Assembly: GCF_000003815.2 (NCBI RefSeq)
Contig: NC_049993.1
Span: 4,078,891-4,142,890, forward strand
DNA: 64,000 bases
Direction: 5' to 3'
From: Branchiostoma floridae
Lineage: Eukaryota > Chordata > Leptocardii > Amphioxiformes > Branchiostomatidae
Shown here: piece by piece, positions 25,418 through 57,515 of the stretch
Layout: each line of letters opens with the position of its first letter
Numbering within the stretch: the stretch's first letter is position 1
Notes under the pieces: generated by a model
Database searches by the model: none
Seen by the model: the letters and a program-made list of their open reading frames with translations, nothing else
What the model was told of the DNA's origin: nothing
Translations under genes and position numbers: made by a program

Positions 25418-25860
25418 CTCCAAAAATAGATTTATCATAACTCACAAGCTTTTCAGACAATCAAATAAAATATCGTAAAATGACCAACAGTCAAAGTTGG
25501 AGAGCGAAAGTTACGGAGCGGACAACCACATTCACATGCGGTGTTGTAACGGGCCAGATTTGAACTCCGACCCGGAAACTCAGCTCAGAACTTCTAGCCA
25601 ACAAGTCAAACCAGTGAGTTGGAGGTATGGATATCGGATTCTAGAATATTTATGCCCATAATACGTTATGTATGTCGGGGTTTTATGAAAATCAATAGAT
25701 GGTTATATGGTAGATTTGTTCGTTGAATGAAGGCAAGGATTTGTTAGACTGAGATCGCGATCCATCGATCGATCGTAGCTAGCGAAGACGATTTATAGAA
25801 TCTTACAAAAATACTCGTTCTTCTCAAAGTTTGTCTTGTTCTGTTTCCACCATGTTTCAG

Positions 25861-28272
25861 CCTACCAAGGACCCGGGCGGGAGAAAAAGCGGAACTTCCG
25901 TGTGCCAAACTGGAGAGAGATCCGTACGGCCGCTTTAATGTGACGAAGAACTGCACTATTGTGGTCGCCAATCCGCTGGATTGGTCAGTACAGTCGGCAT
26001 ATCTGCTGACAATCCGCAGTGGAGTCCACAACACGAGAGTCAAGGTAGAGTTGAGTGACGTTGAGGGCTATCCTCCTGTGTATAACGGGACGTGTGAAAC
26101 TCCGGTCAACACTGACGGACAGACGGGAGATTTACTACACAGTGTAACTACATCATGGGAACTCGTGACGACAATCGGAGATGTTTTCTTTAGCAGTGGG
26201 ACACGCAGCAAAGTCGGCGATGCTACAAAGTATTCTCCTTGGATGGCTCACACGGACAACAGCGACTGTAACATTCGCTTAATTTGGTACACTTCTCACA
26301 TTCCCGAATTGGCAGATTTGATATATGCATAGTACAAGGGTTTCCGTCAACTAACATGTATTGAAAGTTCAAATTCTGGACATGCGAATAAAACCAATGG
26401 GCTGCCCAGTTGGAAAATACGGCCTATTTTGCCACAAAACCTGCATCTGTAAGAACGGCGCCCGCTGCCACGGCTTTAACGGTGCCTGCAAATGTCCGCC
26501 CGGCTGGAAAGGTGTGGCTTCTGACATTCCCAAACAGGACGTCTCCGTCACGACGACACCTAGCGACCCTCGCGATATCTACATTTCGGCAAATGTCATC
26601 TTTCATTGCAAGGCAAACAATGTCGCCGTTCAATACATGTCGTTTACATTTCCAAGTGCGACAGAGAAACTAAGCTTTGGTGAAAATGAGATTAACTTTG
26701 TGGTTCCGAACATACAATCAACCAACAGTGGACCCTACACCTGCCAGGTCCGAGACACCCGGGGAAACACACTCAACACCACGTTTGTGCTCAATGTTAC
26801 CAACTGTGCTCCAGACACAAAAGGTGCCCGGTGTGATGAAGTGTGTGGTTGTCTACAACGTGCCAGCTGTGACCGCTGGGCTGGTTGTGTCTGTCCGCCG
26901 GGATGGACAGGAACCAGGTGTCAGACCACACGGTCAAGACTGTAGCTGTCAAAACGGGGCGAGCTGTAGCTCTAGCGACGGTAAGTGTAATTGCATCGAC
27001 GGGTGGTACGGAAGGAATTGTAACAAACCGTGTAAAGACGGTCGGTTCGGTTGGAGATGTCAGCAGGTTTGTGCCTGTAAGAACAATGCCACATGTAGCA
27101 ACGTGGACGGCAGCTGCGCATGTGTGACGCCGTGGACGGGGCCGGACTGTGACCAATGGCAGACAAGCTCAAGTGAACCGCTGCTCGAAATCCTGGTTTC
27201 ACTGGGCTCCTTAGTCTTACTTGTTGCCGTAGCGATGGCAATACTCTACAAAATGGGCATTCTGGCTTGCTCCGCACCTGACACAGGCGAGGAGGATAAG
27301 ATACTTTTCGAGTTGAGGAGAATGGAGCAGGATCTAGCACAGAGTCTACAGCCGGGATGGCTGGGACGTTGGGAGAAGAAGATCAAACATGTTTCTTCTG
27401 GTCCCCTGATAGGATTAGGAGAGTTTGGGCAAGTCAGAAGGGCGCAACTTCGCACATCTGAGGGAGAGCTTGCCGTTGCCGCTAAGACAGTTCGCGTCGA
27501 GGACTCACAGTCCTACCGAGACTTCTACAGAGAAGCAGCCATTTTGGTAGCTGTGCACAAAGAACGAGATGGCGATTATCGTGAGTCCAACATTGTTCGA
27601 CTCGTGGGGCTCATCACCAAGTCTGCGGTGAAGTACATTCTTCTGGAATATGCACCCAAAGGTGACCTCTTGAGTGTTCTATGCCGAATAAGAATCACTA
27701 CTGAAGAAGACAAACTTGGAAACCTTCTTGGATACGCAGTCCACATAGCACGAGCTCTACAAGAGCTGGAACGCTTGAGAATCGCCCATCGTGACGTGGC
27801 TGCTCGCAACGTCCTCATCACTGCCGATGACGTGGCCAAGTTGGCTGACTTTGGACTGGCCAGAGATGTCTACGCCACTACTCAGTATGTCCGATGCAAC
27901 CGACCAGGCGTTGACGAACTTCTTCCGCTGAAGTGGATGGCGCTGGAGTCCATCGAGACCGGCGAGTACACCTGTCAGAGTGACGTCTGGTCCTTCGGCG
28001 TGCTACTGTGGGAGATCGCCACGCTGGGGAAAGATCCGTGCTATGATGGCAGGATGCAGCTGAGCTTTCTTCAGATGGTGGGGATTCTGAGGCAAGGAAT
28101 ACGGTTGGAGAGGCCGCCGGGATGTCCATAGGACCTGTACCGACTGATGAGGTCGTGTTGGCGCGACGTTCCAGATACCAGACCGACTCCAGAAGGGATA
28201 GAAGAGAGGCTGCTGCAACTGAGACGTGCACTGCTTCCACATGACGTCATTGAAATGGAGACTGTGGTGTAG
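25861..28272 (+). pseudogene. Tie-like receptor tyrosine kinase pseudogene (copy 1), intronless
   Basis: The ancestral product was a cell-surface receptor with a tyrosine kinase. From 25861 (after acceptor TGTTTCAG) an extracellular region runs to 26329. Then come an EGF-like unit (26401-26520), an Ig-like domain (26540-26800), three EGF-like units (to about 27160), a membrane helix (27180-27255) and a kinase with G-loop GLGEFGQV, AAK lysine, HRDVAARN, DFGLAR and WMALES. The lesions are a TAG at 26330-26332, a frameshift near 26402, another near 26930, and a TAG at 28129-28131 in the kinase C-lobe. Beyond it the same frame continues as DLYRLMRSCWRDVPDTRPTP to a stop at 28270-28272. All catalytic motifs survive, so decay may be recent. 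No introns interrupt 2.4 kb, which is unusual for an animal RTK and raises a retrocopy origin, though no poly(A) tail or duplication is seen. Tie-like is inferred from domain order. Confidence 0.8.
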
Positions 28273-31911: not shown

Positions 31912-32005
31912 TTAAAGTAAACATCAAATTGCGAGATATTGACGAGGTTAGCTTTTTAACAGACGACGTTCCTGTTCTGTTCAGGTAGAAGACCTAAAGA
32001 ACACC

Positions 32006-33526
32006 ATGGGGAAAAATCTGCGACACGTGCTCATCTTTCTTCTCATCCTCTGGAATGAGTCCAACGTGTCAGAAACTTTCTGTGAAGACAAGCGTGATTT
32101 CACCAGCGTCCCTCAGAATATCACATACGGCAACCCCTTATCTTTACATAACTTGATAGCAAAAATTCAGCCCCACACACTTGTTAAGACATGGGGAGTA
32201 AATAAGCTGGACCTGTTCTCCAACCACATAACAAATATTCCGGCAGGTACATTTGCACATGTACAGCTATACAATCTCCAACTTTTGTGCTTGGCCCGCA
32301 ACAGGATAACAATGATTCAGAATGGCACATTTGCAGGTCTACACCGGCTAAGAATGTTAAACATGGCCCATAACAGGATAACAAGGATCGAGCCTGGTGC
32401 GTTTGCAGAGTTACCCCAGCTCTTTGAAATCAACCTATCATTCAATCAGATAATAACGATTCAGGCAGGTACATTTGCAGGCCCACCCATTCTCGGAAAG
32501 TTATCGATGAAAAACAACAAAATAGCTAAGATCGACCCTGGTGTGTTTGCAGAGTTACCACAGCTACAAGTACTGATCCTATCCTCAAACCAGATAACAA
32601 TGATTCAAACTAGCACATTTGCAGAGTTGCCGGAGCTCTTTACGTTGGACCTAGACTCCAACCAGATAACAATGATTCGAACTGGAACATTTGCAGATCT
32701 TCCCAGCCTCAGATGGGTGTATCTGAAATCCAATAAGATAACAGAGATTCAGCCCTGTGCATTTGTCAATGTACCCAAGCTACGAGAGGTTAAAGTAGAC
32801 AACAACCAGTTAACAATGATTCAAACTGGCACATTTGCAGACCTTCCCAGCCTCAGATGGGTGTATCTGCAATCCAATAAGATAACAGAGATTCAGCCCT
32901 GTGCATTTGTCAATGTACCCAAGCTACGAAAGGTTAGACTAGACCACAACCAGTTAACACTGATTCGAACTGGAACATTTGCAGACTTACACAGCCTCGA
33001 ATGGTTGCATCTGGAGGTCAATAAGATAACAGAGATTCAGCCCTGTGCATTTGTAAATCTACCACGAGAGGTTAACGTATACGTAGACGACAAGCAGATG
33101 CTGGAAGGATCGATATGCGAAGGAGGAACCATATCAACACAGTCTGTTGATATCCAAACCTCCTTCCAGTCATCTTTAGTTTCAACATCTTCTCCGTTTG
33201 GCAGCACATTAATCAATGCTGGCCCAACAGCGCGCCCTGAAGCCTCCACATCTGCCACACAGTCCCTAATTGATCCAATGCAAAGTGCTAACAACAGTTA
33301 CAATGGCACCGGCACCTCTCGCTATCACTGGTACTTCAAGCGCGATTTTGGTTCTGCAGGCAATACAAGCCAAGCTAGAGCAATAACACCTTCCCTCCTT
33401 GCAATGGACCGATCCCGGAGCCCCGCCCCCTGTTCGATCATGTTCTATTTCGAACACCTCCGTCAAAAACAGCGCTTGTCGGACAGAACTGGCCGCCGCC
33501 GCTGTTTGGTTGATAATAACGACTGA
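32006..33526 (+). CDS. Leucine-rich-repeat receptor, ectodomain exon
   Basis: The 506-residue frame starts at an ATG in a strong context (ACACCATGG), 21 bases after an acceptor (TCTGTTCAG, ending 31984). Residues 1-25 form a signal peptide (FLLILW core). About twelve LRRs of 24 residues follow (pattern LxxLxLxxNxIxxIxxGTFAxLP), residues 65-360. Then comes a Ser/Thr-rich, glycosylation-prone stalk (NNSYNGTGTS). LRR solenoids bind ligands. In this context a recognition receptor is inferred. From residue 466 (position 33403) the frame enters an inverted-repeat element and stops at 33524-33526 in element sequence, so the natural C-terminus is probably the membrane exon at 34221-35648. Classical cysteine-rich LRR caps are poorly developed. 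Confidence 0.8.
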   Translation: MGKNLRHVLIFLLILWNESNVSETFCEDKRDFTSVPQNITYGNPLSLHNLIAKIQPHTLVKTWGVNKLDLFSNHITNIPAGTFAHVQLYNLQLLCLARNRITMIQNGTFAGLHRLRMLNMAHNRITRIEPGAFAELPQLFEINLSFNQIITIQAGTFAGPPILGKLSMKNNKIAKIDPGVFAELPQLQVLILSSNQITMIQTSTFAELPELFTLDLDSNQITMIRTGTFADLPSLRWVYLKSNKITEIQPCAFVNVPKLREVKVDNNQLTMIQTGTFADLPSLRWVYLQSNKITEIQPCAFVNVPKLRKVRLDHNQLTLIRTGTFADLHSLEWLHLEVNKITEIQPCAFVNLPREVNVYVDDKQMLEGSICEGGTISTQSVDIQTSFQSSLVSTSSPFGSTLINAGPTARPEASTSATQSLIDPMQSANNSYNGTGTSRYHWYFKRDFGSAGNTSQARAITPSLLAMDRSRSPAPCSIMFYFEHLRQKQRLSDRTGRRRCLVDNND

Positions 33527-34189
33527 CTTCGGTTTAGCTCCTTTGACCCTGAAATCCTCTCAGACCAAGCCGAAAAAAATGCGCTGACTTCTTTGTTGAA
33601 GGCTACATGCACTGGGTACAATCATCTGAGGAGGGGGCTGATATAGTTGTGGTACGGGCGTCATAATTTCAGTCAAAGCGGAAGCGGGAGGCACCGCATA
33701 TCTTTACCTTGTTGGTGGACAGAAGTGTCCGGTTTCTGACGTACGTCGATGCAGGTGAAAAACAGGGTACATCTATCTGTGACTGAGTTTCTACTGCGTT
33801 TGTTGCATGCATAACAGCTGCATGTATGCTCATGATACAAGCGAAATCAAGAAGAAAGCAGCTCAGGCACTCGTGGAGGGGGAGCTTGTACTACGCACCA
33901 AATAATGGCACACTTCTACAAAGTCTACCAGTGCAGATTCCCGTGTCTTATACATACCCTGCACTACACGTGCATCCTGCCCACCACCAATGTAATGCTA
34001 TGCAGTGGCTCTCGCTCCCACAATACCTATACTCGGTGGGTGTAGTCTTCGACAAAGAATAGCATAGCATATTTCCTTGGCCATTTCTGTTCAACTGGGG
34101 CTGTTTTTGACGGAGGTGTTCGAAATAGAATAGGGGGTTCCATGTTGTTCTATTTGTTCGATATGACGTTCGATCGGGATCGGTCCATT
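33403..34189. mobile_element. Inverted-repeat element splitting the LRR gene
   Basis: The left end (AATGGACCGATCCCG) and right end (CGGGATCGGTCCATT) are inverted copies. Further in, the block ending GAACACCTCCGTCAAAAACAG (33450-33473) has its reverse complement at 34100-34125. It is 787 bp long with no transposase frame. Flanking duplications are not evident. It lies between the LRR ectodomain frame and the membrane/tail frame. Confidence 0.75.
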
Positions 34190-34220
34190 ACTTCAGACAA
34201 ACCAGAAATCCGCAGTTCTC

Positions 34221-35648
34221 ATGAATTATCTCCCAATTTACCCAATTTACCACAGATTTACCACAGATAGAGGCAATGTTCTCATTGCCTCTATCTGTGG
34301 TTCAATAGCTGGCATTATCCTGATTGGCGCCATCATTCTCACTATCTGGTGCAAGAGGAGGACCAGCCATCCTCCTTTGGGACTAAAAAATGTTTCTGTA
34401 ATGGTAAGTGGCCAGAATGACTATGAAAACAAGGATCATGATCAGACAGGGCAGGGCCAGTCTCAGGCCATTACTGAATCCAACACAAACAGCGCAGCTG
34501 CTGTAATTACCAGTGGTCATTATCACCAGTATGAAGATAAAGACAAACAACACAGCCATACAAGTCAGGGCCAGTCTAAGGCCATCACTGAATCCAACAC
34601 AAACACCACAGTTAGTGCAGTGCTCAGTGGTCATGATCACCAGTATGAAGATGTAGACAAACAACATACTCAGATAGGGCAGGGCCAGTCTCAGGCCACC
34701 ACTAAGTTAAACACAAACACCACAGCTGCTGTGGTAAGCAGTGGCCATGATCAACAGTATGAAGATATAGACAAACAACGTGAACAGGCAGGGCAGGGTC
34801 AGTCTCCGGCCATCACTGAATCCAACACAAACACCACAGCTGCTGTAGTAACCAGTGGCCATGATCACCAGTATGAAGATATGGCCCCGCAACACAATCA
34901 GACAGGGCAGGACCAGTCTCAGGCCATCACTAAATCCAACACAAACCCCAAAGCTACAGTAGTGGCCAGTGGTCATGATCACCAGTATAAAAACATGGAC
35001 AGCCAGACAGGGCAGGATAATCCTCAGGCCATCACTAACTCCTTTGATGCTAGAAATCTATCATATGGCTCAGGGCCGACTGCCTCGCAGCTTAATTCCT
35101 TGTACACAAACACCACAGCTGTTGTGGAAGCTAGTAGTTATGATCAGGCAGGGCAGGGCCAGTCTCAGGCTGTCACTGAATCCTTGGATACTGGTAATAT
35201 ATCTTATGGCACAGGGCCGACTGCCTCACAGCTCAACTCCTTGTACAACGTTGAGAGCCAGTATCAGGCCAGTATCAGGACCAGCAGTCATAGTCAGACA
35301 AGGCAGGGCCAGTCTCAGGCTATCATTGAGTCCAACCCAAACACTACAGCTGTTGTAGTGACCAGTGGTAATGATCAGACAGGGCAGGGCCAGTCTCAGG
35401 CCATCACTGAATCCAACCCAAGCACTACAGCTGCTGTAGTGACCAGTGGTCATGATCAAACAGGGCAGGGCCAGTCTCAGGCATTCACTGGGTCATTTGA
35501 TGTCAGGTCGTGTGGCGTGACGGCAGGTTGTTTGGCCCAGAACTCAGAGGTCCTGGGTTCAAATCCTCAAGGCACTTTGCAGGACGTCTCTCCCTTCACT
35601 AATGTGAAAATGAGTACCTATCTCCGTATCAGGCCGTCCCTCGAATAG
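34221..35648 (+). CDS. LRR receptor, membrane segment and repeat-rich cytoplasmic tail
   Basis: This open frame is probably the 3' coding part of the LRR receptor. Acceptor candidates TTTACCACAG end at 34250 and 34266; the ATG at 34221 is only the first in the frame. A membrane helix (IAGIILIGAIILTIW, about 34310-34355) is followed by basic CKRR, a stop-transfer signal, so the rest is cytoplasmic. The tail holds five units of about 38 residues (GQGQSQAITESNTN... SGHDHQYED) and two copies of SYG(S/T)GPTASQLNSLY. Tyrosines in YEN, YED and NSLY contexts could be phosphorylation or SH2-binding sites (inference). The last 45 residues or so read through a SINE-like sequence (35505-35648). The exact join to 32006-33526 is unresolved. 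A GC donor at 33357-33358 would be in phase with the acceptor at 34266. Confidence 0.7.
   Translation: MNYLPIYPIYHRFTTDRGNVLIASICGSIAGIILIGAIILTIWCKRRTSHPPLGLKNVSVMVSGQNDYENKDHDQTGQGQSQAITESNTNSAAAVITSGHYHQYEDKDKQHSHTSQGQSKAITESNTNTTVSAVLSGHDHQYEDVDKQHTQIGQGQSQATTKLNTNTTAAVVSSGHDQQYEDIDKQREQAGQGQSPAITESNTNTTAAVVTSGHDHQYEDMAPQHNQTGQDQSQAITKSNTNPKATVVASGHDHQYKNMDSQTGQDNPQAITNSFDARNLSYGSGPTASQLNSLYTNTTAVVEASSYDQAGQGQSQAVTESLDTGNISYGTGPTASQLNSLYNVESQYQASIRTSSHSQTRQGQSQAIIESNPNTTAVVVTSGNDQTGQGQSQAITESNPSTTAAVVTSGHDQTGQGQSQAFTGSFDVRSCGVTAGCLAQNSEVLGSNPQGTLQDVSPFTNVKMSTYLRIRPSLE
34261..34300. repeat. Perfect 18-bp palindrome inside coding sequence
   Basis: The arm CCACAGATAGAGGCAATG (34261-34278) and its exact reverse complement (34283-34300) are separated by TTCT. 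It spans the junction just before the membrane helix and includes one candidate splice acceptor (CCACAG). Confidence 0.95.
34438..35500 (+). repeat. Coding minisatellite, 113-114-bp unit
   Basis: Five consecutive units are spaced 112-114 bases apart (GGTCAT-ATCACCAGTATGAA near 34517, 34629, 34743, 34856, 34970). They are followed by shorter partial units sharing GGGCAGGGCCAGTCTCAGGC. Frame is kept throughout, so the array can expand or contract as protein. Confidence 0.9.
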
Positions 35649-37859: not shown

Positions 37860-38462
37860 GCAATACGCTTTGACCTGACTTGTATTTTGAAACATTCACC
37901 ATGTTAAAATAAATCCCCATCATCATTATTAATGTTGATATAATTTGAATGGCCAGCTTCAGACAATCAGCCCCGCCCTGTAGGTAAGACTAATCCCGGG
38001 TCGTTTACCACTCGGCATTACGGACCAGCTACTGAAAGATGCACTACTAAAATACTACTATTACTACTACTGAAAGATGCACCCTACATGTTCACAACAA
38101 CAGCCTAAACCACTGCTTAAAAAAAGCTAGCATTTTGCCCAAGTTTGCGAGTGTGAACGTTTTTTTTTCTAGTTATTGGAATTTGCTGTAGGCAGTCATT
38201 CGTTAACACGTCGAAATTGCGACACCTCTTGCCATCATACAAAGACTCCCTTGGGACTAAATGTAACACTCCCTTGAGACAATATGGTGATGCCCAAGGA
38301 CGCTAACGAAGCCAATACAGGTTTGTCTATTGCAAACCTGTAACAATATGATCAGCTACCACCCTACATGTACACAACAACAGCGTGAGCCATTCTACAC
38401 GAGCTCCAGACCAGAACGTGTCTGAGTGGTTTGAAAGGTAAGTTTCTGTCGGTGGATAAACT

Positions 38463-39116
38463 TTGAAGGTAAATCTGTCACGTTTGTGCTCAATGTTACC
38501 AGCTGTGCTCCAGGCAAAGAAGGAGCAAATTGTAGCAAACCGTGTCCAATCGGTCGGTTCGGTTGTACATCAAGTTTGTACCTGTAAGAACAATGCTACA
38601 TGTGACGACGTGGATGGCAGCTGCGCATGTATGACGCCATGGTTGGGACCGGACTGTGATCAATGGCAGACAAGCAGAGATGAACCGCTGCTAGAAAGTC
38701 TGGTCCCACTGGGCTCCTTAGTCTTACTTGTTGCCATAGTGATGGCAGTTCTCTACAAAACGGGCTTTTTGGCTTGCTCCGTGCCCGACACAGGCGAGGA
38801 AGACAAGATACTTTTCGAGCTGAGGAGAATGGAGCAGGATCTAGCACAGAGTCTACAGCCGGGATGGCTGGGACGTTGGGAGAAGAAGATCAAACATCTT
38901 ACTCCTGGTGCCCTGATAGGAGAAGGAATGTTTGGACTAGTCAGAAAAGGAAAACTGCGCACGTCTAAGGGAGAGCTCGCCGTTGCCGCCAAGACAGTTC
39001 GCGTCGAGAACTCACAGTCCTACCGAGACTTCTACAGAGAAGCAGCCATTTTGATAGCTGTGCACCAACAACGAGATGGCGATTGTCGTGATTCCAACAT
39101 TGTTCGACTTGCGTAG
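38463..39116 (+). pseudogene. Truncated receptor tyrosine kinase copy 2
   Basis: This is homologous to 26780-27600 of copy 1. EGF-like remnants (CKNNATCDDVDGSCACM) are followed by a membrane helix (LVPLGSLVLLVAIVMAVLY) and the kinase N-lobe (GEGMFGLV, AVAAKTVR, DFYREAAIL), ending at SNIVRLA with a stop at 39114-39116. The C-lobe with HRD and DFG is missing: a tandem repeat unit begins exactly there. A frameshift near 38565 separates the upstream GRFGC stretch from the rest, and most of the ectodomain is deleted. It lies directly behind the family's upstream region (37860-38460) and is intronless like copy 1. It cannot encode an active kinase. Confidence 0.85.
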
Positions 39117-41109: not shown

Positions 41110-41306
41110 NNNNNNNNNNNNNNNNNNNNNNNNNNNNNNNNNNNNNNNNNNNNNNNNNNNNNNNNNNNNNNNNNNNNNNNNNNNNNNNNNNNNNNNNNNN
41201 NNNNNNNNNNNNNNNNNNNNNNNNNNNNNNNNNNNNNNNNNNNNNNNNNNNNNNNNNNNNNNNNNNNNNNNNNNNNNNNNNNNNNNNNNNNNNNNNNNNN
41301 NNNNNN
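41110..41306. other. Assembly gap (197 N)
   Basis: A run of 197 N. Sequence on both sides is single-copy by eye. Open frames crossing it are meaningless. Confidence 0.99.
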
Positions 41307-45843: not shown

Positions 45844-45882
45844 ATGACAGGGATGTGGATTCGGGCGCGAAAATGGGCATAA
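45844..45882 (+). promoter_or_regulatory. Overlapping upstream ORF in the SAM-receptor leader
   Basis: A 12-codon frame (ATG at 45844, TAA at 45880-45882) begins upstream and ends 10 bases past the main ATG at 45873. If transcription starts further upstream it would compete with the main start. This is sequence-visible; the effect is inferred. Confidence 0.4.
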
Positions 45883-48800
45883 AGTCCGTCCGGAAACCCG
45901 AACCTAGCCTTGAGGGCCGCTGGCTTTGGACTGTGTTTCTTTTGGTTGGCCTTGCACAGACGGTAACAGGTACGTGACTGTAGCCTCTACCAGGCTCCGT
46001 GAATCGGTAGAATTATTATCCTCACCTCGTGGTGAGTAAACGTACTCTTCTGGCCGGCTAACTCCCTTAGCGTACTATAGACTCTATTTGTGCAATTTCT
46101 ACAATTAGACCACCGATCCACGAAGCCTGGTAGAGGCTAACGTGACTGTACAGTACAGTACTTTTTTTGCTCCGTGTGACTGAGCTTACAATTAATTGCT
46201 ACTTTGGTTAACTACACACGGCCACATGTAAATGTGCCCCACACCATACAGATTATATTTCAATCCTAGACCAAATAGACAAGTATGAGAGATACAGAAC
46301 GAAGCCGACCATGCATCCAGACATTCTATTTTTCTATCCTAGTCTACCTGAGTAACATAATTGTAGACTCGGACTCGGCGTTCGTATACGTAGCTGCCTT
46401 ATCGTAGAAACGTTTGCCGCATGAATCATTTCAAAATTTTCCTCATTACTTAAAAATCTTTGTTAAGTTTTTTTTTTAGATAATAACTTACTCCTGACTT
46501 TAGTGGCTTTAGGGAAGCCTTTGTATGACGTTGTCTCTTTTAGCATTAAGGCAAGCAATGGCGGGACAATATTTAGTTTTCATGCTCGGTTGCGTTCACC
46601 CGTTTAGATAGGCAACAACGCGTGGCAACGTTACGGGGTGATCTTGGGCCACTTCGATCTATTGTGACACTATATTCTAGATGTTTCTTAATGTAAACCA
46701 ATACTGGAGTCCCAAATGATTTGCTTTTCAAAGCCGATTCACAAGGTATTTCCGTTTTTTTCAGGTGTAGTAGACGTCACCATCGTCAGTAAGTACCAGT
46801 TCTTTGATGAGCCAGCGGACACCTGGCTGTACTGTTACTACACGGGGAGTCTCATCAACCATCAGAACGGGTACCAGTTCGGTGTAGAGGTCAACACTGG
46901 CTCAGGAACGGTGTTTACATCACGGAGAGGCACCGGCGAGATATCAGGGCGCTATAATGTGAGAATCTATGGTGACGCTGGTGACTTCCGGGTCGGGGCA
47001 TTCTCCTGTCGAGTAAGGACCCCTGACAATAGTCAAACCGAAAAGGCCATCACCTTCAAAATGAAGTCACAGGGTGAGTACACAACTTGTTGCCGATTAT
47101 ATGTGCATAAGAGAGCCATGATTCATGTATTCATCTACTGCTGGAATGCACTTATGAGTCAACAGCCGTCAGATAGAGAAAGACGTATCAATATTCATAC
47201 TTACATCCTCCTTCCAGCCGATGTCTGGCCCGTGACCTTCACAGTGACCGCCAACACAGGTGACCCCGTGACCCTACAGATGGTGCAGAAGTCCAACAGA
47301 ACCGGTACCCTGGTGTGGAGGAAGGGCGGGGTCGGGGGGACTGTCCTGACTGGACAGAACGGTCTCAACTTCACCATGGCCAGTGTCCGGGCTTCAGATG
47401 AGGGGATCTATGAGTGCTACTATCAGGGGGATACTGATAGAAAACAGGGCATCATGAGGCTCATTGTAAGAGGTATCTTAACGTTATACCATTTATCTTC
47501 CGATGTAAAAACAAGGTAATATTTTTGCATGCACAAAGTTAATACTTCTTTTGGTAACACTAAGCGTAATTCCTGTATTACTGTTAATTCCTGTATTACT
47601 GTGATATCATTCACGTTTTCAAGCTGTACAAATCGTGATCACTGAACTTCTACTTGCTTCATTAATGCTGCATATCATTTAATGCACAGATACCTTTTCC
47701 CTCATGCTGAACACCACCCACCCACACAAGCAAAGAAATTTCAACTTGGACATTTGCCCTTCCTTGCTGATCAACAAAGCACACACGCAGGTAAACACAT
47801 CTACGTATTCTGTTTGACAGGTTGCACTGAGAACAAGTGGGGTCCGCCCTCCTGTACCGGTGACTGTCCTGTGTGCTACAACGGCGGTGTGTGTGACGAC
47901 AACAGCGGGGAATGTGTGTGTCCTCCGGGCTTCCATGGACAAAACTGTGAAAGTGGTAAGATATAGTGATGTGTGCAACTAGACCTAAAACAGTGTCTGT
48001 ATGTATAACAGATTTGGGAGAATCCCTGCGTTAAAGAAGGAATGCTAAAAACTAGTAAAAGTAAAGGCTTAATTATTTGTCACACAAGACACTGTTCATT
48101 CTTTCGAAGCCTGTGCGAACAACCAGATCGGTACCAGCTGCACGAGAGAGTGTGAGGGTGGAGACTGTACAGGCCAGCTGTTGTGTGTGATGGACCCGTA
48201 CGGCTGCTCCTGTGCTCCTGGACTCATGGGGATAGAGTGTAACACAGGTGAGTACACATTAAGACAGACTTTATTTCATTCCAACCTTCAGTAGTGTCAT
48301 AAAAATGAAATGAAACAAAATTTGAATGAAAAGGCAATGGTGGACAATTTTACACTCAAATGCCGGAACATTAAACACAATGGAAAAGTCAAACGTGTCC
48401 AGGGCCTGTACATTTCAAATGAAATGCATCAGTTCGAATCCCTACTTCAGGTTGTCCAGACGGCATGTACGGAGCAGGCTGCACCCAAACCTGTCACTGT
48501 GCCAGTGGAGGTTCCGTGTGTGACGTCATGACTGGTGCCTGCTCTAGTGGAGGGTGTGAGGCTGGGTGGGAGGGGAGCAACTGTCAGACAGGTGATTGTA
48601 CTCCGTGCCAAACGGCAATTGTACTCTGTGGTTTCCTTAGTGATGTGTCCGTCCATATATCGAACAATCAAGGTAAAGTTATTCTAAAGATATCTAAGTA
48701 TCTATCCAAGGTATCTAAGTATCTATCTCAGGATCTATCCAAGGCTTCTCGAGTTATGCTGTTGACATGGAATCATGATATTTTCTCATTAATCATGCAA

Positions 48801-51800
48801 ATGAGTTCGTTAGTTGCATGATTAATATCTACTGACATTTCTCTCTTTCTTTACATATGTGACAAGTTTAAAGTTCTATCATGGAATGCAGTAGATTTAT
48901 AAATTGTCCCCATTAATTTTGCAAATTAGCTGTTGATCTGCTACTCAAAAATCACGACCGCAGCATGTTCAGAACAGCATTTATGAAAAAGGGAAGTTTA
49001 GAGGGCCCATTACCGAACTTGACCTTTGTTTTCCTGACCCCTACCCACCTACCAAATATCATCAGTATCCATCCAAGGCTCACGTTATGCTGTTAACAGA
49101 CAAACACAACAAAATGGCAAAAAAACCTTGAATAAACTTCTCATAAAGCATCTATTGATAAAATAAACACCTAGGGGCAATGATCCATTCTACCTTTGTG
49201 CCAAGTTTCAGGTCTTTTGACCCCGGAACGACAGAGATCTTTCCGCTTAAAGATTTCGATAGTAGAAGAAGAAGATGCAGAAACATTACGAATACAATAT
49301 ATTACCCATACCTGTGGTATGTGTGAAATAAGTACGAAAAGAGTATTTAATTACGCCTAGGCCTATTGAAAACTAAACTCAGTATCACCAGTATCAAGTA
49401 CATTGTCTATCTGTAAGTAATATAAAAAAATCGTTTAATTATCACGGAAGGTAAACATACTATTTTTGCTCAGTTTCCTCTTCTTCTCCAAACGAATAAG
49501 GTCAACGACCTGGGCCAGACAGCTGTCACCATGGTTACTGGTAAAGTAGAAGCCACCCTATCTTCACTGCGCGCTCATTGGCATATTCTGAATCACATGA
49601 TTCTCACTACCATAAAAACAAGATGCAAGAAAAATTGATGTGAAAAATTTGCTACTACGTTTTGTATCAATCAATTTACTAAATGAAAAAAAATATATAA
49701 AGTTATAGTCATTGCTTATTGTTTGATTGCGTACATCGTGTTCTGCGATTTTAATGAGGATATTCTATAATTTTCCTCCTGCAGAATGTGATGACGGTTA
49801 TTACGGTAACGACTGCGGGGAAAGTTGTGGAAACTGTGTGACAGGGACGGTTTGTGACAAAACCAACGGCAACTGTCCCGGGTGTGAGGAACCTTGGGTC
49901 GGAGACACCTGCAAAATGAGTATGTAAACCTTCATTTTTCATTGCTGAATGATATACAGATACATGTAGGTGCACGTGCACTGTTGCTCAAGCAGGATTG
50001 ACCGATCATCAGTTCCTTTTCTCAATAGAGAGTGCTTGAATAGTAGAGTTATACTTTTCAATTTATTTTTTATTTTTTTATTTATTCACATATATTTTGC
50101 GAGTATGAGGCGGAAAGCACAAATTGCTTATATTAAGCCTTCTACTCAAGAAACATACGTATAAAACATGAATAGTAAACGACATTACATACATAAGTAC
50201 AAAATGGATAACAGAAAAATAAATTTAAACAAGACAAGTTGGTGCTGAATCAATTAGGAGAACCTGCCTGTACAATGGATATAGGTAATGACAAGATCAA
50301 AAATGTTACAGTTCTGTTGATGTGAGAGAGATGTTGATCCTGATAACAGTAAAGTACATAAATTAGTGTCGTTGAGGTGCTTTAGGTCTACTATAATATT
50401 TGAGACAGCCGATAACAAAGAACTTCTTTGGCTAGTATAGAGTGTGCAGTGTAGTAGATAATGTTCGGTTGTTTCACAATGATAGCCGCATTTACATGTA
50501 GGATAATCAATACAATGGTGTTGAAATAGATGGTAGTTTAACTGACTGAAGTTTAGACGGAGCCTTGTAAGATGAACTGCGGAACGACCTTGGCCATGAG
50601 AGAAATGGGAGTATTTTGTCGGCTTGTTGAATAGTGAGTCCAGCTCTTTTTTGAAAGTGTTGATCGAAAGGACGGCTTTAGCATTCGTAGGCAGTTCATT
50701 CCACAAGTGAACAGTTGAAGGTAGGAAGGATCTTTTATACTTTTCAGTTTTACAGGCAATGGAAGTAAGGTTTTGGTTTGCGCGAAGGTTGTAGGGGACC
50801 GTATCACAGATACGTGGAGGGATAATATTATGTAAGTACAGTGGTGCGAGACCATTCATAATTTTCCAAAACTGAATCAACTGGTGCTTTTTCCTTCTGT
50901 CCGCTAGTGTGTCCCATGCAACCTCGGCTAACAAGCTCTCATGTTTAGTGCCTCTCATGGCTCCGGTACAAACTCGTGCCGCGGCCATCTGGACAGACTC
51001 AAGAAGATCACAATCTTTGCCGAGAAGGCCACACCAAACAATGTCAGCTCAATTCTAATATGAGATAAAAAAACAATCAATGCACGTGTATTGTTGGTGA
51101 AAGGTATTGCATCAGATGCACTTTATACGCTTGTTCTGATACATGTATAGACATGAGATATGGCCTGTATCATTCCAGTACCTGCAACAGTTTCAGAAGG
51201 TCCAGAAAGCGTAACTCTAGTTGTCGAGAATGACACAACGTTCAGCTGCACCGGTCGCGGTGTTCCTGGCCCTAGTGTCGTCTGGTATCATGGCGAAGAA
51301 ATCATCACACCTGGAAACGGGATCAGGATAGACGTTACAGATGGCGGTCTGGTGGGAGAACAACACGTGATCCACAGCACCTTAACCATTACGTCAGTAC
51401 GTCGACAACATAACGGGAAGTACGTCTGTATCTCCTCTAACGTGGCGGGGCACGAGACGTCACAAGAAGCTACACTCGTGGTGCAAGGTACGAGATCGAT
51501 GTAGTTTATGCAGTAATGAAAGCGGTAAAATTTCCATTTCTGTATCTTGCCAGCCTCCCCTATATGTGTTCAAATATCTACACTCTCTACGTTCTGTTTG
51601 CAGAACGTCCTGATGACGTGACAGTAAACGTCACCGCCGTGAACTCTACAACCCTACACGTCACGTGGATAGTAGGTGAAACCGGTAACCTCGACATCCT
51701 CGACTCCCAGGTACGCTACAAACGGAGCGACACGGAGGACTGGGGAGACTGGGAGTCTACTGGAGTTTCTGGTGCGAAGGGTGATGTCTACATTCATAGC

Positions 51801-51997
51801 TTACAGCTGGCCGTCATGTACGATGTTCAAGTGCGGGTGCACAACTTGCTGGGATGGAGCGATCCTGGTAGTGGTCGGATGGGAACTACAGACGAAACAG
51901 GTATTAAAGATATAGAAAATTGAAATACTTTTGAAAACTGTTGTGTTCTGGTGCGTTTCATTTCTTTGCTACGCTAATGCATTATTACTTATATTTA

Positions 51998-52080
<83 letters not shown>

Positions 52081-54967
52081 GAGAGAGAGATGGAAATAGA
52101 TATGCATACAAATAATGACGATCCGTGGTAAAGCGTTATAGTGCTATATATCCTATTTCCAATGCAGAACCGGTATCGCTGTTGCCTACCAGGCCACCTC
52201 TGGGCGCTACTGCAACATCTTTTCCCAAAACTCGGTACATGGAGCCTGTGACTGCAGAGGCCATAATCAAGGGTTAGGCCACACTGTACTTAACTTCATG
52301 GATGACATCACCCTCACACTCAGGGTTGACAATCGCGGCAAAGCCTAGCGATATCACCCCTGACAACTCAGCCACAGAATTCAGTTATTAGGGCGCCTTG
52401 CTTATGAATATTAATGAGCTTGCCCTTATATGGGCAGTCAGCCGTTGGGGATTGGGCGTAGGAGGATGGAGCCATGTAATACGTAACATGATTGGCTGAT
52501 AGCTTCCCAGCGGCCTTTGCGAGACAGCTTGCGACAACAAAAAGCCCAAGAAAAGCCTATTCTATGATTGGTTGACAGCTGGTTTGTGGCGAAAATCATA
52601 ATAACCACTGATAGGGCATGAAATAGCAGGGCCCCATAGGCTAATGCCGTTGGGGACCGGGCGTTAGGAGGATGGGATGACATCTGCGCGCATTGATTTT
52701 CGCCTGTCCTCAATAAAACTGTGGCCACATGTTACCCAATAGCATATCTGTCCAATCAGAATTTTACGCTTGCTAAAGACTTTGCTCTCCAGTGTAAGGG
52801 GGCACATGGTCAGGGCATGGCGCCACAGCGCCCTTGATCCACTCTTTAAACAAGAATGGCCATAAAAACATTATAATTGAAATGCAATGACTGTCTCTTA
52901 CTGGAGGTGAATATATGACTAACAAAACTTGGGAAAGAATAGACTGGATGTTTAGTCCTGTGGTTTAGCAGCATTTTTTTTTTATTTTGCTGGATTTTTT
53001 CGCCCTCGCGATTTAGTTTTGGGGTCCTCAGAGGATGCCATACATAGAATTAAGTCAGTGTGGTCTTAATTGATTAAGACCCATTGTCTGGGTGCCATTC
53101 AATTACTACCGGGGCTCCCTACCCTCTCTATCTTGATTTTTTCGTCATTCTGATGATTCATTTCAATATGAAAATAGCTCACATTGTTGTCTAAATTTTG
53201 TAGGTCCACCCGAAAGTGTTAGTGTCGCCTCCATCATTGGTGGTAGCGTTGGGGCTGCCCTGCTGGTCGTCGTTCTGTTGACAGTCGGCATAATATGCTA
53301 CAGGTAACTAAAGCCCGTATTAACAGAAAACGTGATCCATCAAAATGTAATCATGAAGCGCTGAAATTCTTTTAAGTAAAATCTGTGATGTTGTTATTTT
53401 TAGCAAGATGTCTGCTCCAGCTGCTTCAGAAAAAGAACACCTATTTGCTGGCTTGTATTTTTCATTACTTTCATTGATAGCGTTTGTGTGTTTGGACCTC
53501 ATACTGTCAACTTAAGTAGCTACTTCAACTGACGCCCAAACCAATTATGTCTTAAAGAAGGAGACACGCTGCTGAGCGACAGGACCCCATAGGCGGTCAA
53601 ATAGACCTGAACATGATCAAAACTGACGATCCCTCCGACAGTGCATCAGCTGAGAATCCTACATGTACAGAATTGCATGAATACAATTCGCCTTATGAAA
53701 CGGTAACCTTTTATTCGGTGTTTTCCTATACAGACTACATTATACTGGTTTTACTGGTTGTACTGTACGTATCTACTAAATCGTTGTTGGTACATGAGTT
53801 CGATACGTAACGTTATCATTCTAATTCTGCATTGATGTCTTTACGACGCTAAGTACTTCTTTGTTGTATCTCCTTCTTATACAGATCTATCCCTCTGTAT
53901 TTCCGAAAATTTACCTTTATCACGTTTTAATTCACTCTTTTGATGTAGCCGATTTACAACATCACAGACCTTGTAACTGTGGATGACGTAGTGGAATTCC
54001 TAAAGGCCAAGGGCTTTGGCCAGTACGCTGCAGCATTTAAGAGTAAGTTAAGTTCCACGTACAACTCTTATTTCTTTGCAACCTTAACGAGGAAAAAACT
54101 TGATACAACAATGATACAACTGCTTCAGCTATATCAGTAGGTGAATTTGATGATGCCCATTTGATCCTCTTGGTAGGTTTTGCCTGCTTGCGAAAGTTTG
54201 CTAAGTTTCTTGTTAATTAGACATCTTATTGCTCAGGGCACAAAATAGACGGAGTTGCCGTAATGTACCTGAACGACGCTGTGCTTGCTGAGCTCGTCCC
54301 TGAGATCGGGCCGAGGGTAAAACTACAGAAAGCCCTGCAAGAGCTGAAGGACAACCAGGTTTGCCTCATTTTACCTCATCAAGCATATTTATTTTCAATA
54401 CATGTTATCTTTTTCACGTAATATTAGTAATATGACCTCATCTGTGTACCAACGCTGCCGTCATTTCCATGGTAGTTAATTTAACAACATTGTCATTTCA
54501 AAATAAAGGCCAGGAAGTGACACAACACCACAATGCATTGCAATGTATACACTGTAGCAGAGGTATGCACCTATTCCCTTCAAAACTGCAAGAAACCTTG
54601 CACAGAAAACTAATCTACTATATACTCTGAGGAAACTGTCAAATGGCCTCAACTGGGAAGCCAGGCTGATACTGAACACAAAAGCATTGAACAGCTGTCT
54701 GTGCCCATCTGTTGGTTGGAAGATCACAATTTTTATACATGCTTATGTGATGCAATGATGTCGCAGCATCTCCCCCAGAATATTGGTATGTAATGCTATA
54801 GGGTTGATTGAACTAACAATGTAAAGAAAAAGTAGGAAAAGGTACTTTTTTGTTTCGTTCAAATCTTACGTATCATACATTTAAAAGGCAATCAACGGAA
54901 GTCTTAGTGCAGAGATCAATGTATTATTTCTTTACTTTTGCAGACATACACCTCACTGCTGAACTAA
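45873..54967 (+). CDS. Tie-like Ig/EGF/FN3 receptor with cytoplasmic SAM domain
   Basis: Fourteen coding exons: 45873-45969, 46765-47073, 47218-47472, 47821-47955, 48110-48247, 48451-48591, 49785-49919, 51179-51487, 51604-51900, 53204-53303, 53558-53702, 53949-54042, 54237-54358, 54944-54967. All phases agree and the product is 766 residues. Residues 1-33 are a signal peptide (WTVFLLVGLAQTVTG). Ig-like domains cover 34-135 and 136-220; the second lacks its first cysteine. Four EGF/laminin-type units follow (220-403, e.g. CYNGGVCDDNSGECVC), then an Ig (FSCTG...YVCISS, to 506), an FN3 (ERPDDVTVNV, to 605), a membrane helix (GAALLVVVLLTVGIICY, about 615-637) with basic RRRH after it, a linker, and a SAM domain (688-759: VVEFLKAKGFGQYAAAF, HKIDGVAVMYL). 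It ends TYTSLLN. The ectodomain order is that of Tie/angiopoietin receptors, but no kinase follows. SAM domains mediate protein oligomerisation, so scaffold signalling is inferred. Confidence 0.88.
45975..46146. mobile_element. Small inverted-repeat MITE in intron 1
   Basis: The ends GTAGCCTCTACCAGGCTCCG (from 45978) and the inverted CCTGGTAGAGGCTA (to about 46139) form arms of about 37 bases around a 100-base interior. It starts within a few bases of the exon 1 donor. Confidence 0.78.
49190..49325. repeat. Dispersed repeat end
   Basis: CCAAGTTTCAGGTCTTTTGA, GGAACGACAGAGAT and TACGAATACAATATATTACC match the ends of the repeats at 44110-44230 and 39840-39930. It is intronic in the SAM receptor gene. 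Confidence 0.6.
50055..51053 (-). mobile_element. 5'-truncated non-LTR retrotransposon, C-terminal part
   Basis: The minus strand is open from about 51040 to a stop at 50254 (ADIVWCGLLGKDCDLLES..., then MAAARVCTGAMRGTKHESLL). It contains the LINE C-terminal signatures NLRANQNL, KRSFLPSTVHLWNELP, and CKCGYHCETTEHYLLHC. Reverse-transcriptase catalytic motifs lie upstream and are missing. A 3' AT-rich tail (AATAAATAAAAAAATAAA on the minus strand) ends near 50055. The CR1/L2/Crack-like group is likely but not decided. It sits antisense in the intron between the last EGF and third Ig exons. Confidence 0.85.
51999..52076. repeat. (TA)n microsatellite
   Basis: About 39 TA units in the intron after the FN3 exon, followed by a short GA run. 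Confidence 0.98.
52385..52680 (+). repeat. Dispersed repeat (inverted partner at 14345-14645)
   Basis: Contains GCTTATGAATATTAATGAG at the left and two copies of CCGTTGGGGA-GGGCGT-AGGAGGATGG (52442 and 52645) bracketing the body. It matches the lectin-gene intronic copy in inverse orientation. Confidence 0.8.
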
Positions 54968-56168
54968 GAATCCACTGACAGAGACATAGAAGAATCATTT
55001 TGCCAAGAAGGAAACGTTGTCTCATGTTCTCACCAACACATAGCCAGAATGACCAATGTGACTCTAGGAATATCAAGCATACAGAAATATGTTCTACTGG
55101 ACAATCTTATGCTAATTATGAAACATTTCAATAATGAAATGAAGATTACACATTCATTTTTATCACAAACATGGCACATATACTGTACAAGCTGCATCAT
55201 AAGATAGGAATATATTAGGATAATAGATTGCAAATTTTAAGCAAACAAAAACAATTCATAGTTTACATTTCCTGTTTACGATATTTACATCATTTTGTAT
55301 TTTTATCTTATTTAACCAAGATAACAGTGTGCATCTTCTGCCCATCTATGTAATTCACTTTGCACAAACTAAAATATGACAACGAACATTTAGTCCAGAG
55401 AATTCACAACTGCAAACTACCACCACTGGTCTTGTGCTAAAACAAAACGGGGTCCAGAACAAAAATTACCATAAAAACCTGCCATTAACACAGTAGCTTG
55501 AGAACCAAATCAGCCCCACCTCACATTATCCTCCCTGGCACTAAGACTACAGTCAATGACAGGGTTATATCTTGGCCATTCAATGCCATTTCCTAACAGC
55601 AAGATTATGCTAATTCTATTGGAAAGGACAACTTATACTGACAAACTTTAGCTATATAAAGTACATGTGAGCCAATGCAATTCCTGTGAAACGTAAATAT
55701 GTTCCACTCATTTGATTTCTGTATAATTACAATTCTTTTTGTACAAAGGCTTTGGTCAAGCATTGCATACAATTGAGTTAACAGGATCTAATGATAGAAA
55801 GCATCATCTAAGTACAAATGTATGTTACCTTTACTGACCTACAGCATACGGTGTAGGGCATTTTATAAATAAGCAACTGTTCCAGCAATCTTTTTCCCTC
55901 CACAGCAAATATTCATCTTAACCAACATATATATATATATATAGAATAACTAAAACTTTTCTATTGTAGTCAGAGCATTTACAGCTACAAGATGCAGTAT
56001 ACTATAGAGATATACATCTGTAACTAATAGAATTACCAATGGGTACCTGATAGCATGTACCTCTATTCTAGGCTGCACAACATGTAGGTAAGACTGAACT
56101 CAGTTATGAAGGAATCTACTTTTATCCAATATCATATAACCATGAGGTAGCGTATTATCTGTATTCTT
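54968..56168. other. 3' flank of the SAM receptor gene, no other gene
   Basis: AT-rich DNA with no supported exon on either strand. A short TATATA run lies at 55929-55942. Part is presumably 3'UTR. Confidence 0.5.
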
Positions 56169-56948: not shown

Positions 56949-57515
56949 CGAGGGGCGGTCAATAAGTAATGCCCCTGACCCATTTCCCATAGCAGGAGAT
57001 TAATGAAACTTGGCACAGTTATTAGTCTTTCTCTTCATAGGAATCACCCAGAGTTATGCATTTCTCCCATCGTTTGATGCAGCTCTGGACACCCTTTTTG
57101 TAGGACACCCCAGGTTGGTCCTCCAACAGATGCCTCATCAATGGCACAAGAGGGACGACCAGGTCTGGGAGCTGTTTCCACAGACCATGTTTGAATTCAG
57201 GATGCCAGCATTTTACAAGGTCATATGATGGGGCATCATCACCATAAGTTTCTTTCATTTCATCAAAAGTCTTCTTTGGTGTGCATCCTTTCAAATACAA
57301 AATCCGGATCACTGCGCGACACTCAACTGGTTCCATTTCACACCTGGTCCATTTCGCACCTGACTCAGTTCAAACACCAGTAAATCAGAAACCACAATTA
57401 GTTCAGAGCTGTTTTTGCAACATAACCTATAAAGATATGAATCATTACACACACAAAATTTCATTTAGATCAGACAACTGGAAGTGGGTTAGGGGCATTA
57501 CTTATTGACCCCTCA
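56949..57515 (-). mobile_element. Mariner transposon with internal deletion
   Basis: The ends CGAGGGG-GGTCAATAAGTAATG (left) and the inverted CATTACTTATTGACCCCTCA (right) are each next to TA. The minus-strand frame (57336-57022) starts MEPVECRAVIR-LYLKG and continues to DDAPSYDLVKCWH, the helix-turn-helix start of a mariner transposase. It then jumps to the C-terminal end (HLLEDQPGVSYKKGVQSC, KRWEKCITLG). The whole DDD catalytic core is missing between about 57160 and 57190, so the 567-bp copy is non-autonomous. Confidence 0.9.

Follow-up and report, generated by a model that had tools for sequence, protein, structure and literature searches.

A 64,000-nucleotide stretch of the Branchiostoma floridae genome (C15:4078891-4142890, here called the window; positions without a contig are in window numbering) contains on its forward strand, between positions 45873 and 54967, a gene for a predicted single-pass receptor with a Tie-type ectodomain and a cytoplasmic SAM domain. 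Comparison with paralogues elsewhere in the genome suggests that the gene has, with good probability, lost the kinase of its family, whose receptors are built as Ig-Ig-EGFn-(Ig)-FN3-transmembrane (TM)-SAM-tyrosine kinase and combine a Tie-type ectodomain with an FGFR-type kinase.

Structure of the receptor gene

The gene model comprises 15 coding exons (Table 1) that splice into one open frame of 801 amino acids. All 14 introns have GT-AG borders, the start phases run 1 (ten times), 2, 0, 1 and 0 along the gene, and GC content is 0.42-0.60 in exons versus 0.23-0.44 in introns. The encoded order is signal peptide-Ig-Ig-EGFx4-Ig-FN3-TM-SAM, with the TM helix at around residues 648-673. An earlier note on this DNA had counted fourteen exons in consistent phase; the phasing stands, but the count was one short. 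The domain order that it had read, without a kinase, agrees with the spliced frame and with Pfam. Exon 10 could be a cassette exon. Intron 7 contains, by reading of open frames, a frame resembling a non-long-terminal-repeat (non-LTR) retrotransposon at 50254-51048 on the minus strand.

Profile searches of the 801-residue protein bore out the Ig domains (E 5e-18) and SAM_1 (E 9e-9, 36 bits with a cut-off of 23), but fn3 scored slightly under its cut-off (E 1e-4, 22.9 bits with a cut-off of 25), hEGF and EGF_laminin were also under theirs, and Pfam found no kinase domain. Ig1 received no Pfam call alone; its support comes from the tail of the Tie2 alignment and from exon matches in all seven paralogues (in P6 as two pieces, one of them with a stop). 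An AlphaFold single-sequence model of exon 2 was poor (predicted local distance difference test score, pLDDT, 49), and the model of FN3 reached pLDDT 73 and matched FN3 domains in the PDB. The best PDB match of the ectodomain was TEK/Tie2, far ahead of all others at E 1.4e-44, over residues 110-359 (the Ig2-EGF part). No TEK structure occurred in the best 60 of 194 PDB matches of Ig3-FN3 alone. The Tie-type character previously claimed for the outside of the receptor thus holds for the domain order and for Ig2-EGF, but not for the sequence of Ig3-FN3.

PDB matches of the SAM domain included SAMD1, Shank (Shank2), Ph, Scm, Sfmbt, BicC and others, with SAMD1, Shank2, Sfmbt and Ph the closest; many SAM domains of this kind polymerise. 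An affinity with Eph SAM domains was ruled out, as none of the 24 PDB matches was an Eph receptor. A genome-wide profile search with PF00536 returned 37 matches, none of them at the window gene, whose SAM domain is split across exons.

Table 1. Coding exons and adjoining segments of the window receptor gene (window numbering) and its paralogous loci
Feature	Position	Strand	Content
Exon 1	45873..45969	+	Start codon (AAAATGG context), signal peptide; phase 1 at end
Exon 2	46765..47073	+	Ig1; matches in 7/7 paralogues (P6: two pieces)
Exon 3	47218..47472	+	Ig2; Pfam, PDB and paralogue matches
Exon 4	47821..47955	+	EGF 1
Exon 5	48110..48247	+	EGF 2
Exon 6	48451..48591	+	EGF 3
Exon 7	49785..49919	+	EGF 4 (last EGF); donor scores weakly
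Exon 8	51179..51487	+	Ig3; tblastn match in P1 and P7, none in P2-P6
Exon 9	51604..51900	+	FN3
Exon 10	52168..52272	+	Pro/Thr-rich stalk; 105 bp, in frame
Exon 11	53204..53303	+	TM helix; phase 2 at end; 59% identity to P2 TM
Exon 12	53558..53702	+	Juxtamembrane, TM-SAM linker; YNSPYETPIY tyrosine cluster, its final residues in exon 13; acceptor scores weakly
Exon 13	53949..54042	+	SAM, first half
Exon 14	54237..54358	+	SAM, second half; phase 0 at end; same donor precedes first kinase exon in P2 and P3
Remainder	54383..54911	+	529 bp between two P3-aligned blocks; the corresponding exon-to-exon interval is ~2.9 kb in P3 and ~4.5 kb in P2, where it holds eight kinase exons
Exon 15	54944..54967	+	TYTSLLN and stop; final coding exon, homologous to those of P2 (TYASLLK) and P3 (AYASLMK)
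3' untranslated region	54968..55542	+	Homologous to that of P3 (alignment 54912-55542, 66%)
P1	C15:10.30M (C15:10301001-10331000)	+	Tyrosine phosphatase exons, second phosphatase domain
P2	C15:1.93M		TM, SAM, tyrosine kinase exons in order
P3	C15:10.29M (C15:10261001-10291000)	-	TM, SAM, tyrosine kinase exons in order
P4	C14:19.69M		Ig1-EGF exons; no SAM, kinase or phosphatase match in 30 kb
P5	C5:2.73M		TM, SAM, tyrosine kinase exons in order; TM match weak
P6	C15:7.78M		Tyrosine phosphatase exons; examined stretch ends at first phosphatase domain
P7	C15:10.77M		Tyrosine phosphatase exons, second phosphatase domain

Paralogues with kinase or phosphatase cytoplasmic domains

When the genome was searched with the Ig1-EGF3 part of the receptor, 128 matches were obtained (122 of 543 candidates scored, which makes the locus count a lower bound). 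At least seven further loci with Ig1, Ig2 and EGF exons are present, and 20-30 kb of each was examined (P1 to P7, Table 1). By tblastn against the seven, Ig3 was found in P1 and P7 only and FN3 in P1, P3 and P7 only.

P3 splices in phase from TM through SAM and kinase to the stop over 13 exons, and from the last EGF through FN3 to the stop over 15; Pfam reported PK_Tyr (E 3e-89), SAM and fn3 in the spliced product. The P3 kinase matched FGFR1-3 in the PDB at ~1e-81, behind one two-kinase EGFR chain whose score sums both copies, as seen with the window kinase query, and no TIE structure was present in the best 60 of 823 matches. An in-phase chain that starts at the last EGF in P1, and at Ig3 in P7, passes through FN3 and TM and enters the first phosphatase domain. 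In spliced P1, where Pfam gave Y_phosphatase (2.5e-80) with Ig and fn3, the TM segment is followed by a protein tyrosine phosphatase (PTP) domain with the signature HCSAGVGRTG, and the locus has a second PTP domain after it, the features of a receptor tyrosine phosphatase; the closest PDB entries were those of PTPRA (two-domain chain 4e-163, single domain 2e-100), with PTPRE next. P2, P5 and P6 have their parts in order on one strand with no full in-phase chain, the breaks lying in the juxtamembrane block of P5 and the TM block of P2; the phosphatase exons of P6, the sole part tried for that locus, do chain.

A genome-wide search for SAM-kinase genes gave 123 matches (120 of 647 candidates scored) that were dominated by single-block kinases and provide no count of SAM-kinase members. 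Two further split-exon kinases (C15:8380048-8380728 and C15:8414661-8415074) share 61-77% identity with the kinase of P3, and stops occur in one of their pieces. A more distant Tie-type locus at C18:9004001-9018000 displays, by eye, Ig2, a number of EGFs, a segment resembling Ig and several open frames that resemble FN3, and is perhaps closer to true Tie; over the 14 kb covered, the sole match to the kinase and phosphatase queries was a weak one on the minus strand (E 6e-4).

Probable loss of the kinase exons from the window gene

The view that the receptor carries SAM in place of a kinase was overturned by the paralogues P2, P3 and P5, in which SAM stands ahead of a kinase. Alignments with P2 and P3 over exon 14 run just beyond its donor, to 54363 and 54382, and restart slightly before exon 15, at 54912 (P3) and 54936 (P2). 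The interval between the two exons is 585 bp in the window gene, versus 2.9 kb in P3 and 4.5 kb in P2, where it holds eight kinase exons. The end of exon 14 and the start of exon 15 are both in phase 0, and the reading frame is preserved across the loss for that reason. Queries with the eight kinase exons detected no split-exon kinase in the window or within 30 kb on either side; matches at E ≤0.03 in the window were confined to the intronless kinase copies described below (27-28 kb and 39 kb), and all others had E values of 0.1-0.8. The 529-bp remainder gave no significant match to the paralogues, the window or its flanks.

In its ectodomain, TM, juxtamembrane and SAM exons the window gene is homologous to the SAM-kinase members P2, P3 and P5 (with splice positions compared, and the same, in P2 and P3), and it retains the last exon and 3' untranslated region, without the FGFR-type kinase that these members have between SAM and the last exon. 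These gene structures indicate that it lost its kinase by an internal, frame-keeping loss of eight exons. The SAM domain was not gained, because P2, P3 and P5 have it as well, after TM and ahead of their kinase.

Selective constraint and alternative explanations

Selection was measured as the Nei-Gojobori ratio of nonsynonymous to synonymous substitution rates (dN/dS). Over the pooled ectodomain the ratio was 0.24 for window-P2, 0.35 for window-P3 and 0.43 for window-P1, and over SAM it was 0.27 for window-P2 (70 codons) and 0.24 for window-P3 (37 codons). When SAM changes were polarised with P3, the changes on the window branch were synonymous in 6 cases and nonsynonymous in 7 (ratio 0.35), and on the P2 branch in 12 and 9 (0.23); the juxtamembrane exon, polarised in the same way, gave ratios of 0.60 on the window branch and 2.30 on that of P2. 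These values favour a working protein, though they do not prove one.

Several observations weigh against the interpretation of the gene as a constrained, kinase-deleted member of the SAM-kinase family. Window-P1 ratios were 1.04 for Ig1 and 0.73 for Ig3, those for TM plus juxtamembrane were 0.77 (window-P2) and 0.59 (window-P3), and the selection counts are small and undated relative to the kinase loss. Ig3-FN3 resembles Robo/contactin more than Tie2 in the PDB, a likeness of a generic kind. The last kinase exon of P2 has no AG acceptor at the homologous place and the juxtamembrane exon of P5 could not be placed, leaving P3 as the only kinase receptor shown to be complete and in phase. The interpretation is drawn from genomic sequence.

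The alternative that fares best, though unlikely, is that the gene is a receptor-kinase copy in early decay, in which pseudogenisation began with the loss of the kinase, so recently that the frame has not yet closed. The missing catalytic domain, the weakly scoring exon 7 donor and exon 12 acceptor and the near-unity dN/dS of Ig1 relative to P1 would fit such a course; however, 15 of 15 exons are open, 14 of 14 introns are GT-AG, the frame is intact over the loss, and the ratios are 0.24-0.43 (pooled ectodomain) and 0.24-0.27 (SAM). We give somewhat less credence again to an assembly or haplotype effect, with the kinase exons present in other haplotypes or dropped in assembly. One assembly is the basis of the work, the 529-bp remainder has no recognisable origin, and a genome-wide search for displaced copies of the kinase exons was swamped by other kinases. 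Yet both flanks of the loss align to the paralogues and the gene contains no run of N, the window's two such runs being at 6471-6570 and 41110-41306.

A gene-joining error, by which the SAM exons would belong to another gene, finds support in published warnings that novel domain combinations in lancelets are often prediction errors, as several have proved to be (PMC4967905, PMC6071037). The exon 12 acceptor is poor, with 37% of AGs scoring equally well. Among 300 dinucleotide shuffles of the interval, an in-frame linker of at least 90 bp arose in 183 and one of at least 145 bp in 66, and in 7 the linker both reached 145 bp and scored as well as exon 12. The link between TM and SAM is thus weak on the window sequence alone, but it is settled by the predicted structures of P2 and P3: the TM, juxtamembrane, SAM and last-exon series recurs there at the same splice positions and phases, with TM-juxtamembrane-SAM running on into the kinase, and the SAM exons are for this reason assigned to the window gene, as the earlier note had them. 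A joining error is accordingly very improbable. That SAM truly took the place of the kinase, through a swap with the local kinase copies, is scarcely credible: kinase fragments do lie ~7 and 18 kb upstream of the gene, and the Ig-EGF piece of one weakly matches Tie2, but in the paralogues SAM comes before the kinase, and the local copies have no introns and match a different family.

Exchange of ectodomains between kinase and phosphatase members

The ectodomains of P1 and P3 are 72% identical in Ig1, 94% in Ig2, 93% in EGF1, 93% in EGF2, 91% in the last EGF and 85% in FN3, with no Ig3 found in P3. Between P1 and P7, the ectodomain domains are 38-64% identical and the eight phosphatase pieces compared are 65-100% identical. 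Because its ectodomain is near that of a kinase receptor, P3, and its phosphatase near that of P7, the halves of P1 have different histories. The predicted P1 protein is a kinase-type ectodomain on a phosphatase cytoplasm, which indicates that ectodomains were exchanged between the classes by a switch between the FN3 and phosphatase exons; the FN3-TM intron is in phase 1 in both classes. P1 and P3 lie head to head in divergent orientation, their Ig1 exons separated by 12 kb. The first four ectodomain pieces of P6 are 57-86% identical to P1, and ectodomain trees place kinase and phosphatase members among one another, at low to moderate support (14-69 in the Ig2-EGF2 tree, 27-88 in the Ig1 tree). 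By nucleotide identity the window ectodomain is nearest to P1 in four of seven domains (Ig1, Ig2, EGF1 and Ig3), and equally near to P1 and P3 in EGF2; P3 is the nearer in FN3 and in the last EGF, where the value for P1 comes from another EGF copy. The suggestion that ectodomain and kinase modules had been swapped locally is therefore right in that ectodomains have moved between cytoplasmic parts on the same chromosome (P1 compared with P3 and P7), but the kinase copies in the window took no part.

It is about an even bet that these loci form a paired-receptor system based on opposing enzymes, in which a Tie-type ectodomain, duplicated repeatedly, has as its cytoplasmic part a SAM-kinase (P2, P3, P5), a tyrosine phosphatase (P1, P6, P7) or SAM alone (the window gene), and the same ligand or neighbour would possibly be read as kinase, phosphatase or neutral. 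What had been supposed to be a one-off fusion becomes one of a family whose Tie-type module for sensing comes with a kinase, with a phosphatase or with neither of them, and the family is the surprising part. Vertebrates have the two activities on separate proteins, the kinase Tie2 and the phosphatase VE-PTP, which act on one pathway. P3 and P1 allow a direct test of whether one ligand can elicit opposing phosphotyrosine signals. No published description of a Tie ectodomain with SAM or phosphatase was recognised among the titles listed, in a partial coverage of the literature that excludes D'Aniello et al. 2008 (amphioxus kinases), and the available portions of PMC8662651, PMC2575513, PMC8870065 and PMC5336234 contain none.

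Proposed role of the kinase-free receptor

The juxtamembrane segment contains tyrosines Y716, Y720 and Y725, and two consecutive YxxP motifs (YNSP and YETP) stand directly before SAM across the exon 12/13 junction (53642-53960); of these residues only YET-x-IY is common to the window gene, P2 and P3. Most likely, we infer, the window protein acts as a non-catalytic partner or decoy. Expressed and inserted in the membrane, it would have its ligand or partners in common with the kinase paralogues, pair with these receptors via the similar ectodomains and SAM, and, sharing binding partners with kinase and phosphatase members alike, join their complexes. Because the protein has no enzyme, its juxtamembrane tyrosines could be phosphorylated in trans only, and it would dampen or redirect the signal of its relatives as a built-in dominant-negative or scaffold receptor. 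A kinase-free member produced by frame-keeping loss would constitute a natural experiment on the SAM and juxtamembrane parts acting alone.

Comparison with known receptors

The window receptor shares with Tie1/Tie2 (TEK) the Ig-Ig-EGF order, and an Ig-Ig-EGF-Ig-FN3 ectodomain as a whole, along with its best PDB match; its domain borders fall at exon borders in phase 1, which is like the Tie2 gene. Tie2 has three EGFs and three FN3 domains, whereas the window gene encodes four EGFs, one FN3 and an internal SAM without the cytoplasmic Tie-type tyrosine kinase, and the kinase of P3 is FGFR-like. A receptor-kinase ectodomain and TM segment without a kinase, beside kinase-bearing relatives, is also the arrangement of FGFRL1 (FGFR5) and other kinase-less decoy receptors; FGFRL1 is reported in amphioxus (PMC2754479). 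Unlike FGFRL1, which has another ectodomain, the window gene retains SAM and the last coding exon of its family.

Eph receptors resemble the window receptor in being single-pass proteins with FN3 and a cytoplasmic SAM, and they too have tyrosines just inside the membrane. The window receptor has neither an ephrin-binding domain nor a SAM C-terminal to a kinase: Eph SAM domains follow the kinase (PMC6485061), whereas SAM of the P3 type lies between TM and kinase. The P1 cytoplasm is like that of receptor tyrosine phosphatases alpha and epsilon in its best matches and its second phosphatase domain, but P1 has a Tie-type ectodomain and the window gene has no phosphatase. PTPRA and PTPRE belong to the R4 class and have short ectodomains devoid of Tie-type domains. 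Paired immune receptors have activating and inhibitory members with similar ectodomains, and share with the present family one ectodomain type on opposing intracellular outputs and the exchange of ectodomains between members. Here, in contrast, the outputs would be enzymes (kinase versus phosphatase) together with a SAM-only form.

Intronless kinase copies and other elements of the window

Two pieces of an intronless receptor with the order EGF-Ig-EGF-TM-kinase lie at 26674-28128 and 38460-39113. Described in the earlier note as two broken Tie-like kinase copies, they are indeed present and broken: in the first a stop interrupts the kinase and the ectodomain contains a shift, and the second is truncated. 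Tie kinases were ruled out because the PDB matches of the 26674-28128 kinase, after the two-kinase EGFR chain, were FGFR, RET, ABL, ROS, MET and FAK, with no TIE in the best 60 of 802. The Ig-EGF piece of this copy gave a weak TEK match (E 3.6e-8), and the ectodomains of the intronless family and the window receptor may be distantly related. An open-frame relative, L036 (C8:24055801-24059000), shows 55% identity over 404 residues and reads as EGF-Ig-EGFs-TM-kinase. By our own count, at least 53 frames of at least 550 residues match the EGF part at 30-47%, and many recur as kinases in the genome-wide SAM-kinase search; L036 is the one that was read. The local copies belong to a separate intronless receptor-kinase family, and were ruled out as donors or remnants of the window gene.

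At 31952-35645, there is an open frame of leucine-rich repeats (LRR_8, E 3e-84). The frame after it contains a hydrophobic segment and a tandem array of 114-bp repeats, and many of the repeats code for a tyrosine motif of the kind HQYEDxDKQH; taken together, the two frames look like a leucine-rich-repeat receptor with a repeated tyrosine tail. A tandemly duplicated array of similar EGF exons (TCSPGWTGQNC type) occupies 12890-14160. On the minus strand, 23400-25460 contains an open reverse-transcriptase frame resembling a non-LTR retrotransposon (RVT_1, E 8e-31), and 57025-57369, downstream of the receptor gene, encodes a Mos1-type transposase helix-turn-helix domain (HTH_48, E 6e-7).

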